Source: Anaerolineales bacterium (GTDB lineage: Bacteria > Chloroflexota > Anaerolineae > Aggregatilineales > UBA2796). From it: DNA of 64,000 nt. The stretch is from contig JABTTZ010000002.1 of the NCBI GenBank assembly GCA_015075625.1, positions 682,001 through 746,000 of the forward strand, in the 5' to 3' direction. Positions 29,666-33,564 of the stretch are shown in pieces (position 1 is the stretch's first letter; each line of letters opens with the position of its first letter). The notes below the pieces were generated by a model, which was given only the letters and a program-made list of their open reading frames with translations, was not told where the DNA came from and made no database searches. The position numbers and the translations under genes were made by a program.

Positions 29666-29715
29666 TCTCCAACGTCAATTTGCCGAATGCCCCTCAGATG
29701 TGTCACATTAGGGGT

Positions 29716-30996
29716 ATGACAGAACGCATTACGATTCTTGAAGACCAACGGATCATCCTCGGCGTCACCGGCAGCATCGCCAGCTACAAGGCGGCTGATC
29801 TTGCCAGCAAACTGGTGCAGGCGGGCGCTACGCTGGATGTGATCCTCACCGAGTCTGCCCAAAAATTTATCACCCCGCTCACCTTTCAGGCGGTGACCGG
29901 ACGTCCTGTATATACCGACATATGGGCGACGGAATCGAGCGGCGGGCTGCCCACCCACATTGCCCACATTGGCTTAGCAGAAGGGGCGAATCTCTTTGTG
30001 ATTGCCCCCGCCACCGCCCATCATATTGCAAAACTGGCAAATGGCTTGGCAGATGATCTCCTCTCCATCACCGCGTTGGGTGTCTCTTGCCCGCTGATTA
30101 TTGCCCCAGCGATGGATGGGCATATGTACCATCACCCCGCCACCCAAGAGAACCTCCGCCGTCTGCGCGAACGCGGAGCGATCATCATTGAACCGGAAAG
30201 CGGGCGAATGGCATCAGGGATGGTTAGCGTCGGGCGCTTGCCGGAAGTTCTCACCCTGATCGGCGTCATTCGCCACCACTTGGGACGCGAATGGGGGGCG
30301 CTGACGGATCGGCGGATCGTCGTCACGGCGGGCGGTACGCGGGAGGCAATCGATCCGGTGCGTTTCATCTCCAACCATTCCTCCGGGCGGCAGGGGTACG
30401 CCGTAGCGCAGGCGGCGCTGGATGCCGGAGCAACCGTCACCCTCATCACCACCCCAACGGGCTTGCCGCAGCCCGTTGGCGCAAGGGTAATCCTTGTCGA
30501 AAGCGCCGCCGAGATGCTTGACGCCGTGTTGGATCACGTCAACGGGGCGGATGCCCTGATCATGGCGGCAGCAGTGGCAGATTTTCGCCCCCTTGAGGTT
30601 GCCGATCAAAAAATTAAAAAGAAAACAAAAACGCTGGCACTGGAACTAGCGCGGACGGAGGATGTGTTGGAAACCGTTGGCAAACGCCGCCACGAGACGG
30701 GCGATCCCCGCGTGTTAGTTGGTTTTGCCGCCGAAACGCAAGATTTGCTGCGCAACGCCCGCGCCAAACTGGAGAAGAAAAATACCGATTTCATCGTCGC
30801 TAACGATGTCTCACAGACGGGGGCAGGCTTTGGGGTAGAGACCAATATCGTCACCATCTTGGGCGCTGATGGCAGCGCCGTATCGCTCCCCCAACAAACG
30901 AAAACAAGCGTTGCCGAGGCAATTATCCAGCGGGTGGCGGCACGCTTGCAGACGATTCCCCGCCGTCCAGAACTCCCCGAAAATGATGGCGGATAG
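29716..30996 (+). CDS. coaBC: Bifunctional phosphopantothenoylcysteine decarboxylase / phosphopantothenate-cysteine ligase
   Basis: Two steps of CoA synthesis in one protein of about 426 residues. The N-terminal flavoprotein CoaC has ILGVTGSIASYKAADLASKL, HIAHIGLAEGANLFVIAPAT and the PAMDGHMYHHPATQ active-site loop. The C-terminal CoaB has VTAGGTREAIDPVRFISNHS and SSGRQGYAVAQAAL, DALIMAAAVADFRP and KIKKKTKTLALELARTEDVL. Start 29716 is preferred because the flavoprotein core begins there; 12 more codons are open upstream. A bidirectional terminator follows. Confidence 0.95.
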   Translation: MTERITILEDQRIILGVTGSIASYKAADLASKLVQAGATLDVILTESAQKFITPLTFQAVTGRPVYTDIWATESSGGLPTHIAHIGLAEGANLFVIAPATAHHIAKLANGLADDLLSITALGVSCPLIIAPAMDGHMYHHPATQENLRRLRERGAIIIEPESGRMASGMVSVGRLPEVLTLIGVIRHHLGREWGALTDRRIVVTAGGTREAIDPVRFISNHSSGRQGYAVAQAALDAGATVTLITTPTGLPQPVGARVILVESAAEMLDAVLDHVNGADALIMAAAVADFRPLEVADQKIKKKTKTLALELARTEDVLETVGKRRHETGDPRVLVGFAAETQDLLRNARAKLEKKNTDFIVANDVSQTGAGFGVETNIVTILGADGSAVSLPQQTKTSVAEAIIQRVAARLQTIPRRPELPENDGG

Positions 30997-31030
30997 GGGG
31001 TTCCTCCGCGCCCTCCAAACAACAGAAAAC

Positions 31031-31059
31031 AAAAACCCCCACTTACAGCAGGGGTTTTT
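31031..31059. terminator. Bidirectional intrinsic terminator
   Basis: AAAAACCCC (31031-31039) and GGGGTTTTT (31051-31059) form a 9-bp stem usable on both strands. On the plus strand it ends coaBC; on the minus strand it ends the small transcription unit at 31.03-31.2 kb. Confidence 0.85.
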
Positions 31060-31080
31060 GTCGCGCTCTGGGTTGTCTAC

Positions 31081-31134
31081 TCAGTTGTCTGAGTGGAGGA
31101 AACCCAGAGCGCTAGGCATGTCAGCCTGAAACAC
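31081..31134 (-). CDS. Putative 17-residue microprotein or regulatory uORF
   Basis: GTG at 31134 opens a 17-codon frame, read from the gene as VFQADMPSALGFLHSDN. AAGGAGGTGATCC (31148-31136), complementary to the full 16S rRNA 3' end, gives a 7-nt spacing from AAGGAGG to the GTG, which is optimal. The ORF runs into the outer 3' arm of the nested hairpin, so ribosomes would affect folding. It has no repeated amino acid, so it is not an obvious attenuator. Confidence 0.4.
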   Translation of the reverse strand: MFQADMPSALGFLHSDN

Positions 31135-31202
31135 TGGATCACCTCCTTCCACTAGTTAACGAACTCTGTAGGGGTGAGGAAACTTTCCCACACACAGGTG
31201 CG

Positions 31203-31231
31203 ATTATGAGGCAAAACGGATAGCTTGTCAA
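31203..31231 (-). promoter_or_regulatory. Near-consensus promoter of the small transcription unit
   Basis: On the minus strand TTGACA (31231-31226), a 17-bp spacer and CATAAT (31208-31203): 11 of 12 consensus bases at optimal spacing. It lies in the gap after the WD40 gene and points toward the small unit. This is the best promoter match I found in the window. Confidence 0.7.
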
Positions 31232-31264: not shown

Positions 31265-32356
31265 TTACCGCTTCGGCACACCCCAGACGCGCACCGCGCC
31301 ATCCCCTCCAGCGGTGATCACAAACCGTCCGCTGGCGCTGAATTCAACATGGTATGCCCACCCGCTGGGAAGCGGCAGCAGCGCTTTCCCTGTGCGGGCA
31401 TCCCATACCACCGTGCGATCCGCGCCAGCAGTGGCAAAAAGCGACCCATCGGGGCTGAAGGCGAGATCAAAAATCGTTCCCGTATGCCCTTTCGTCGCCT
31501 CGCCCAGTTCGCCCGTTACCGCATCCCACAGCCAGACGACGCCGCTGTCGGTAATCGTGATCAGGTGTTCCCCATTGGGGGCGTAATATACGTGTGTCAC
31601 GGGTGCGCTGTGAACAAGCCGCAGCGTGGGGCTGCCCAAGCGAATATCCCATACCAAAACAATCGACTCATGGGCGGCGGCAACCCGAAGATCATCGGGC
31701 GAAACATCCATTGCCGCAACCGGACCGTTGTGCCGTAGCGTCGTGATCTGGCTCAGCGCCATTGCATTGGCGGGGTTCAGCGATGCCGCATTCGCCAGTT
31801 TGTCTTGAATCTCGGCAAACGCCGTCGCCCCGGCGCTAATTGTGGCATTCACCGCCGCTGTTGCCATGCCTTCGGCGGTAGCGGTTTGGGCGGCTTTGTC
31901 CAAGCCGGCTTGCGCTGTCCATGTCAGGCGCACAATCGCCTCTGTCGCCCGCCCCTCGTTTTGGGCGGTGGCAGTGTAGGCGGCGTTTGTTGCCTCTGCC
32001 TTCGTCCGCTCTGGGATGGCGGTCAACGTCAGGTTAATTCCCAGACGCTCAAGCGTTCCGGCGGCGCGGGCGGTCTCGTTCAACAGCACGCCAACTCCTT
32101 TCTCAAGCGTGGCGCGGCTCTCTGCCGTCGCTGTGATTGCCTGCCCAACCACTGTCCCAATGATTGCCGTCGCCGTCCTTTCAGCGTTGGCAAGGGCGGC
32201 GGCTTCCGTCAGGCGGGCGTTCACCGTCCCGTTTACATCGGGGGTATCGGCAACATTCACTGTGTTGCTCATGGCGGGAATGGTCAAACTGAGGATCATC
32301 ACCACCAGCAGTGCGGCGATGGTGATGAGGTAAACGACATTCCGACGGTTGCTCAC
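31265..32356 (-). CDS. Membrane-anchored WD40-repeat protein
   Basis: 363 residues. An N-terminal helix (VVYLITIAALLVVMILSLTI) anchors an extracytoplasmic part rich in Ala/Thr (about 40-200, predicted helical with TATA-type repeats). Four WD40-like blades follow at the C-terminus, such as VAAMDVSPDDLRVAAAHESIV and IFDLAFSPDGSLFATAGADR, ending in a WGV motif. Too few blades for a closed propeller on its own, so it may oligomerise or the helical part may complete it. Function unknown. Confidence 0.85.
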   Translation of the reverse strand: MSNRRNVVYLITIAALLVVMILSLTIPAMSNTVNVADTPDVNGTVNARLTEAAALANAERTATAIIGTVVGQAITATAESRATLEKGVGVLLNETARAAGTLERLGINLTLTAIPERTKAEATNAAYTATAQNEGRATEAIVRLTWTAQAGLDKAAQTATAEGMATAAVNATISAGATAFAEIQDKLANAASLNPANAMALSQITTLRHNGPVAAMDVSPDDLRVAAAHESIVLVWDIRLGSPTLRLVHSAPVTHVYYAPNGEHLITITDSGVVWLWDAVTGELGEATKGHTGTIFDLAFSPDGSLFATAGADRTVVWDARTGKALLPLPSGWAYHVEFSASGRFVITAGGDGAVRVWGVPKR

Positions 32357-32466: not shown

Positions 32467-33564
32467 TTACCCCGCCGCCGCCATGTGGCGAGCAGCAAGG
32501 GGAAGGCGGATCGTTGCCAACGCGCCCCCTTCGGGGAGGTTGGCAAGACTAATCTCTCCCTTATGCAGCGCTAAGATCGTCCGTGTGATGAACAACCCCC
32601 ATCCCTTGCCGTGTGCGCCGCTTTGGGGAGGGGCTTTCGTCGTCAGACCGGGGGTGAACGGACGCGCCAGTACCTCTCGTGGGAAGCCTTGCCCCTGATC
32701 GGCAACACTGATCAAAACCGTCCCATTCACGGCAAGGCTCACCTGCACTTTGGGGCTTGCCTCTACCGCATTGCGCACCACATTAAACACTGCCCGATAG
32801 AGATCGCGCTCTGACCCTGTGACAAGAACCGTCTCTGCCGGAGCGCGGAAGGTGACGCGGGCGCGGGGAGCAAGCCGCTGGATGTCTTCCACCACCCGTT
32901 CTAAGAGGTCGCCCATGTCAATGCGCTGGTTCGTCTCGCCCGCCGCCGGAAATTCCTTCACCCGTGCAAGGACGGAGAGCAGATCGTCAAGGCTGGTCTC
33001 TAGATCGCTAAAATTCTCGTGGATTGTATTCGGGATGCGCTCTTGTTCTTTCATCGAATCGAGATTCAAGCGAATGGCTTGCGTGATGTTTGAAAGCTCA
33101 TGACGCAGACCAGTCAGCAGATCGCTGATCACGGCGTGCGATTCCCCACCAATAGCGTCAATTTGGGTGAGCATCCGCGCTGCCCGCAGTTCGTTGAGCC
33201 GCGTCAGCCCCCGCCCAATCAGATCGCGCACGTCATTTTGGCTGAAGGGTTTCTTCAAGTAGGCATACGCCCCAGCGTTGATCGCCTCTAGGCTGCTTTC
33301 GAGGTCTGCTGCCGCGCTGATGAGGGCAATGGGCATCTCTGGAACGCGAGTGCGAATCGCCTTTAGCAGTTCAATCCCGCTCATCTCTGGCATCCACACA
33401 TCAGTAATAACCAGATCAACAGGGGGAGTGCGCCGCTCAATCACATCTAACGCTTCCGAACCGCCTGTAGCCTGCAAGACAGCGCAGCCAAGCATACGAA
33501 CTTGCGCACCTAAAAGGAGGCGATGCTGCGGATTATCATCAACAATCAACACTTGAGGTTGCAT
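32467..33564 (-). CDS. Receiver-first hybrid histidine kinase
   Basis: 365 residues. An N-terminal receiver domain (about 1-120) has VLIVDDNPQHR, the phosphoacceptor Asp in DLVITDVWMPEMSG, and the conserved Lys in AYLKKPFSQND. A kinase follows: LLTGLRHELSNITQAIRLNL carries the likely phosphoacceptor His, then HATPase boxes LYRAVFNVVRNAVEAS, SVADQGQGFP and GKGWGLFITRTILALHKG. The receiver precedes the kinase, opposite to most hybrids, so the Asp may gate kinase activity. No sensor domain or membrane segment; it likely relays another kinase signal. Confidence 0.9.
   Translation of the reverse strand: MQPQVLIVDDNPQHRLLLGAQVRMLGCAVLQATGGSEALDVIERRTPPVDLVITDVWMPEMSGIELLKAIRTRVPEMPIALISAAADLESSLEAINAGAYAYLKKPFSQNDVRDLIGRGLTRLNELRAARMLTQIDAIGGESHAVISDLLTGLRHELSNITQAIRLNLDSMKEQERIPNTIHENFSDLETSLDDLLSVLARVKEFPAAGETNQRIDMGDLLERVVEDIQRLAPRARVTFRAPAETVLVTGSERDLYRAVFNVVRNAVEASPKVQVSLAVNGTVLISVADQGQGFPREVLARPFTPGLTTKAPPQSGAHGKGWGLFITRTILALHKGEISLANLPEGGALATIRLPLAARHMAAAG

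Follow-up and report, generated by a model that had tools for sequence, protein, structure and literature searches.

The locus raises the question of what is encoded by a predicted minus-strand transcript of about 170 nt that carries its own promoter, an extended Shine-Dalgarno sequence (SD), a very short ORF and a terminator. In the window, namely the whole 64,000-nt stretch of DNA that was analyzed, the element lies between a WD40 gene on the same strand, which ends at 31265, and the CoaBC gene (29680-30996, plus strand), which is convergent to it, so that no minus-strand gene follows. The parts of the element (Table 1) agree with the preliminary description, which had listed a TTGACA-17-CATAAT promoter, an exact complement of the 16S 3′-end, a GTG followed by a 17-codon ORF, a nested hairpin and an intrinsic terminator in an isolated, self-contained unit; the promoter is also conserved in the homologs described below. 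The window RNA is predicted to fold far more stably than shuffled sequences (z = −6.3). Two genes upstream of the element, at 32467-33564 (−), lies a response-regulator receiver fused to a HATPase_c domain.

Table 1. Predicted features of the element in the window, in order of transcription.
Feature	Position	Strand	Remarks
Promoter, sigma-70 type TTGACA-17-CATAAT	31203..31231	−	TTGACA 31231-31226, 17-nt spacer, CATAAT 31208-31203
Predicted transcript, ~170 nt	31024..31196	−	inferred from promoter and terminator; start ~7 nt past the −10 box
Segment 0, 5′ leader anti-SD TCACCCCTAC	31168..31177	−	SD partner in the full-length fold as predicted
Segment 1, extended SD AAGGAGGTGATCCAG	31134..31148	−	complements the end of the 16S 3′ tail exactly over 15 nt
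Short ORF, 17 codons, MFQADMPSALGFLHSDN	31081..31134	−	GTG start at 31134, TGA 31083-31081
Hairpin 2, 5′ arm GCGCTCTGGGTT	31101..31112	−	12-bp helix with 31074-31063, enclosing an inner hairpin; 12/12 pairs covary in 100 homologs
Segment 2, in-ORF CTGGGTTTCCTCC	31095..31107	−	12 of 13 pairs with SD and spacer; overlaps the 5′ arm of hairpin 2
Segment 3, 3′ arm of hairpin 2 AACCCAGAGCGC	31063..31074	−	starts 6 nt past the stop codon
Intrinsic terminator CAAAAACCCC..GGGGGTTTTTG and T-run	31024..31060	−	stem 31060-31030

An exact 15-nt match to the 16S antisense strand is what a decayed 16S fragment would leave behind, and a mere chance coincidence of signals was considered along with it. With up to one mismatch allowed, AAGGAGGTGATCC occurred once in the window compared with 0.07 occurrences expected from shuffled sequences, and the exact 13-mer core of the anti-16S sequence was found in the whole 4.68-Mb genome only at the element and antisense to two 16S 3′-ends. 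The rRNA (AAAGGAGGTGATCCAGCCGCAGC) and the element (...CCAGTGTTTCAGG) share a run of 15 nt, beyond which both flanks diverge and no 16S similarity was found in the window element. The preliminary description had named the edge of a longer decayed rRNA fragment as the finding that would overturn it; homologs have other spacers, and the element therefore does not mark the boundary of an rRNA copy. Together with the class-level conservation, covariation and kept reading frame reported below, the divergent flanks refute both origins, to which we assign scarcely any probability.

The covariance search of related genomes that the preliminary description had suggested recovered homologs at increasing distance. 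Searching with the DNA itself brought up copies from the genus and family of the window genome, a covariance model built from three copies reached divergent relatives within the order, and a second model built from six copies matched 151 of 396 genomes that sample part of the class, which is a lower bound because the search filters were strict for >40 genomes. The matches were spread over dozens of families and almost always present as one copy per genome; of the 11 genomes from the family of the window genome, 7 matched when the E cut-off was relaxed to 0.5, but only four of them strongly. Based on these comparisons, we conclude that the element represents a genuine RNA family that had gone unrecognised, present in well over one third of the sampled class genomes. 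Several candidate matches were discarded, including weak ones from the order that appeared to be coding sequence (L014-L017) and antisense-strand covariance matches produced by the symmetric hairpin (L019-L021). The strict pattern AAGGAGGTGATCCAGT-N-TAGCGC matched only the window's own genome in the class sample, being too strict, and the SD pattern matched viral contigs just 3 times. Outside the class but within the phylum, two matches (L281 and L283) do not look real and three (L282, L284 and L285) do; these likely homologs, from another class, carry a TTGACA-TATACT promoter, AAAGGAGGTGATGCCAATG, an ORF MNDSSHCSITEGLL, a GCATCAC complement and a terminator.

Comparison of 114 of these homologs revealed a common layout of sigma-70 promoter, extended SD, 15-20 codon ORF, hairpin and terminator. 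The promoter consensus score averaged 9.82 compared with 6.03 in shuffled sequences and reached at least 9.5 in 95 homologs, with a median distance of 54 nt from the −10 box to the SD, and a terminator-like hairpin was found in 106/114 homologs but in only 4/114 shuffled ones. The extended SD, GGAGGTG(A/G/T)T..., complements 8-17 nt of the 16S tail in 114/114. Start codons are ATG (110), GTG (3) or TTG (1), and the stop codons TAG (56), TAA (52) and TGA (6) occupy the same structural place, usually a few nt 5′ of the hairpin 3′ arm. The hairpin 5′ arm starts ~22 nt past the start codon, with an anti-SD-like (A)CACCTC(C) just inside the hairpin, and the conserved segment 2 motif lies 24, 27, 30 or 33 nt from the start codon and at no other distance, in frame in 114/114; since several of these values occur inside single families, all indels preserve the frame. 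The kept frame and the interchangeable stops at one place are good evidence for translation of the ORF.

A strict frame with in-frame indels, together with the residues MD.SS.K.SAVASP that recur in the homolog peptides, would also suit a small-protein gene with autoregulated translation whose product is the 15-20 residue peptide. We hold this reading to be unlikely: the common SAVASP residues fall on codons of the covarying arm, the serine codons within codons 2-7 are AGY in 197 of 213 cases (AGT in 157), unlike later codons, which suggests a constraint at the RNA level, and neither the window lineage nor the related form of family f2 retains anything of this peptide. This turnover between lineages and the early serine codon bias suggest that the peptide is mainly a by-product. 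Candidate causes of the AGT/AGC bias are an RNA motif UAGUAGU or a tRNA effect; pairing of a conserved upstream CGCYAUCC with codons 2-7 was unsupported by permutation.

The gene downstream of the homologs lies on the same strand in 58 cases and on the opposite strand in 56, which indicates an independent gene rather than a leader. A transcription attenuator in the leader of a downstream gene, for example an AIR-synthase-like one, is accordingly rather improbable, and the convergent CoaBC in the window and the strong terminator, for which no alternative antiterminator was seen, speak against it as well. What such a leader would account for is the AIR-synthase-like N-terminal motif found in the same-strand downstream gene of 15 homologs from 9 families (one of the 15 confirmed by Pfam as AIRS/AIRS_C), and the homoserine dehydrogenase-like gene downstream of 6 loci of family f42. 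The recurrent AIR-synthase-like neighbor, whose loci include L060, L009, L029, L069, L084, L113, L117, L121, L130 and L135, may reflect ancestral synteny.

Segment 2 is complementary to the SD and spacer (segment 1), and its 5′ part is also complementary to segment 3; the "nested hairpin" of the preliminary description is one of two competing partners of segment 2. The hairpin's 5′ arm, together with its loop, lies inside the ORF and mimics the 16S tail. For helix 2:3, in an alignment of 100 homologs that was fitted to this helix, all 12 pairs had double changes and 96.3% of the cells were paired, compared with 22-50% in slid controls over the whole structure; a six-sequence MAFFT alignment gave 100% pairing with 5 covarying pairs. 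For helix 1:2, 82.4% of the cells were paired, with 56 double-changed cells compared with 23 after shuffling. Across 29 families, the cognate duplexes were stronger than partner-permuted ones, both for 1:2 (−22.2 vs −20.0 kcal/mol) and for 2:3 (−14.7 vs −9.4 kcal/mol), and none of 5000 permutations was as strong as the cognate set for either helix, in a test that assumes independent families, an assumption that holds only roughly. By sequence comparison, the element is a conserved gene with a conserved frame and mutually exclusive helices.

Folding predictions gave these helices an order. In a nascent RNA ending just before segment 3, the mean predicted probability of SD:segment 2 pairing was 0.81 (>0.5 in 104/114 homologs); once segment 3 was made, it fell to 0.03 and that of 2:3 became 0.95, and the same 1:2 to 2:3 order was predicted for the window RNA. 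For the full-length RNA, the predicted fold keeps the SD mostly paired with the 5′ leader, with 0.15 unpaired, so that translation may be weak or require assistance. This leader:SD pairing is the weakest part of the modeled structure: it amounted to 0.76 in homologs compared with 0.61 with shuffled leaders, and the covariation support sought in homologs was not found. The preliminary description had seen here all signals for a strongly expressed gene. The signals are indeed present, but with most of the SD predicted to be paired in the complete RNA, that reading looks to miss the main point, which would be conditional masking of the SD. A long SD complementary to both an in-ORF segment and the 5′ leader looks built for such masking.

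Because segment 2 is complementary, in a cognate-specific way, to both the SD with its spacer and the 3′ arm, the RNA is, as judged from sequence, a free-standing attenuator-like switch that would couple translation to SD masking. We therefore consider it probable that this conserved free-standing RNA gene works like a leader-peptide attenuator with no operon attached. In the predicted course, the nascent RNA would first adopt 1:2, hiding the SD; when segment 3 is made, 2:3 would form and the SD would be held by the weaker 5′ leader hairpin alone. A ribosome could win the SD through its very long 16S match, translate segment 2 and stop beside segment 3, keeping the latter open. Since the ribosome would translate segment 2 and terminate beside segment 3, the fold would report initiation, that is, ribosome availability or translation rate, and the RNA family thus probably reads out ribosome activity. 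As no gene is attached, the output of the switch is probably in trans; in the least certain step, released segments, or an RNA stability that depends on the conformer, may act as a small regulatory RNA.

Another function for the same SD would be that of a 30S buffer or decoy, in which the extended SD holds 30S subunits and releases or captures them with supply, and the ORF lets ribosomes run off. The complementarity of the SD to the 16S tail in all 114 homologs agrees with this, as do the duplex energies in the window RNA (−30 to −32 kcal/mol for SD:16S vs −20 kcal/mol for SD:segment 2). Its probability is nevertheless low, since a single-copy gene would need extreme abundance to titrate ribosomes and since a buffer accounts neither for the strict frame nor for the covarying 12-bp helix 2:3 next to the stop codon. 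A 30S buffer, a functional peptide and lineage-specific attenuation in cis each keep a low probability. Extending the preferred reading of a switch, we tentatively propose, as a doubtful but conceivable generalization, a widespread kind of RNA, occurring in the window's class and in the distant Alphaproteobacteria, that meters free ribosomes: it would carry a near-complete SD as well as a 16S-tail mimic, and ribosomes translating its disposable ORF would flip the fold, releasing a trans signal that tunes ribosome supply or demand.

The statement that no known RNA or protein is recognised held at threshold, with Rfam returning only tRNAs from the window and 15 homolog loci at the gathering threshold, but it did not hold below it, where CC2171 (RF01867), an sRNA of Caulobacter and other Alphaproteobacteria with the same layout, was the best match (31.1 bits vs a gathering threshold of 75, E = 4e-5, 301-nt search). 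Run against the whole window genome, the CC2171 model again gave the element 31.1 bits, below gathering; a second weak CC2171-like match lies in the same genome at G000 contig C5:33997-34123 (L148; 23 bits, E = 0.014). Sub-threshold matches to Phe_leader and rnk_pseudo (E 0.06-0.3) were terminator or stem matches and were set aside. A GTDB scan with the pattern AAGGAGGTGATCCAGTGTYTSA found at least 120 stretches, almost all from Alphaproteobacteria among the matches listed, and seven of eight that were tested exceeded the CC2171 threshold, the eighth falling below it at 58 bits. Among the matches listed, the alphaproteobacterial ORFs begin MSHC... and mostly have 20-26 codons, the in-ORF:SD pairing beats codon shuffles in 112/116 loci, the predicted nascent SD:ORF pairing falls from 0.67 to 0.25 with the 3′ part, and the downstream gene is on the same strand in 46 and on the opposite strand in 54.

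CC2171 and the window element thus share a GAAAGGAGGUGAUCCAGUGU start region followed by a short GTG-start ORF, an in-ORF segment complementary to the SD (CCUGGAU..CGCCUC in CC2171), a large hairpin, a terminator and standalone loci. The sequence similarity, however, is confined to the SD region and a few bases, the CC2171 peptide (MSHC...WIVAS) is unrelated to that of the window, and only CC2171 has a long-range helix of CAUUGUC (codons 3-5) with GACAAUG before the terminator, which is absent from the window fold. Both halves are present in 53 of 80 alphaproteobacterial loci with CATTGTC among the matches listed, and CATAGT/ACTATG and CAATGTC/GACATTG look compensatory (CC2171 loci L149-L268, among the matches listed); the conserved MSHC start may reflect this RNA pairing. 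The common layout of the CC2171 loci examined and the window element is, as far as sequence goes, a likeness of design rather than demonstrated common descent. One covarying pair was added to RF01867 in Rfam 15 (PMC11701678), and a predicted CC2171 locus with RNA-seq coordinates, MH_s33, is known in Mesorhizobium huakuii (PMC5596092). Our literature search for a function of RF01867/CC2171 found none, and that for sRNAs of Anaerolineae or Chloroflexi gave nothing useful; a CcnA paper considered as an account of CC2171 equates CcnA with CCNA_R0094 at the origin, and the passages retrieved from it leave CC2171 unmentioned.

Leader-peptide attenuators have a short ORF over alternative hairpins, followed by an intrinsic terminator, with the stop codon at the switching helix. 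The element shares the short ORF, alternative hairpins and terminator with trpL/rnTrpL and pheL (Rfam Phe_leader), and mutually exclusive helices spanning the ORF were present, whereas a regulated gene downstream on the same strand was absent, as judged from the convergent CoaBC and the 58:56 ratio in homologs. It also differs in having no downstream operon and no regulatory codon run, and in that the extended SD is itself a pairing partner. Like the dual-function sRNAs rnTrpL and Spot 42, the element is a small RNA carrying a short ORF, with translation being predicted in its case; to our knowledge, the ORFs of those two do not mask their own SD by an in-ORF mimic of the 16S tail. Translated ORFs of 14-15 codons have been described for both (PMC10117765). 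In the Sinorhizobium meliloti duf1127 uORF leader, the SD and first codons form a hairpin under ribosome scarcity, and a ribosome-supply sensor has been proposed (PMC12218461). That leader acts in cis, attached to its gene, and has a C-rich attenuation element in the uORF, whereas the element stands alone with its own intrinsic terminator.

The family comprises a class-wide, single-copy RNA gene with three-way complementarity and a strictly kept frame, in a design common to an alphaproteobacterial sRNA, and would show that a gene standing alone can embody the logic of an attenuator. Should the switch read ribosome initiation, it would offer a simple genetic handle on the way bacteria sense translation capacity, one that could be tested in Caulobacter.

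A related standalone form was observed in family f2 of the same order (L011, L012, L013, L018 and L023), consisting of a promoter, AAAGGAGGTGGTC.AGTG, a 10-15 codon ORF, a long hairpin and then a terminator. Its ORFs encode MFEQTMVGVLTP, MIDCMVEVTHL, MNGCMVGVNPR, MYETMVEVNL and MFQDLNTQIALVVSF, and its hairpin reads GGTGGRGGT../..CCTCCCACCCGCTA, with the stop codon inside the 5′ part in most of the f2 loci.
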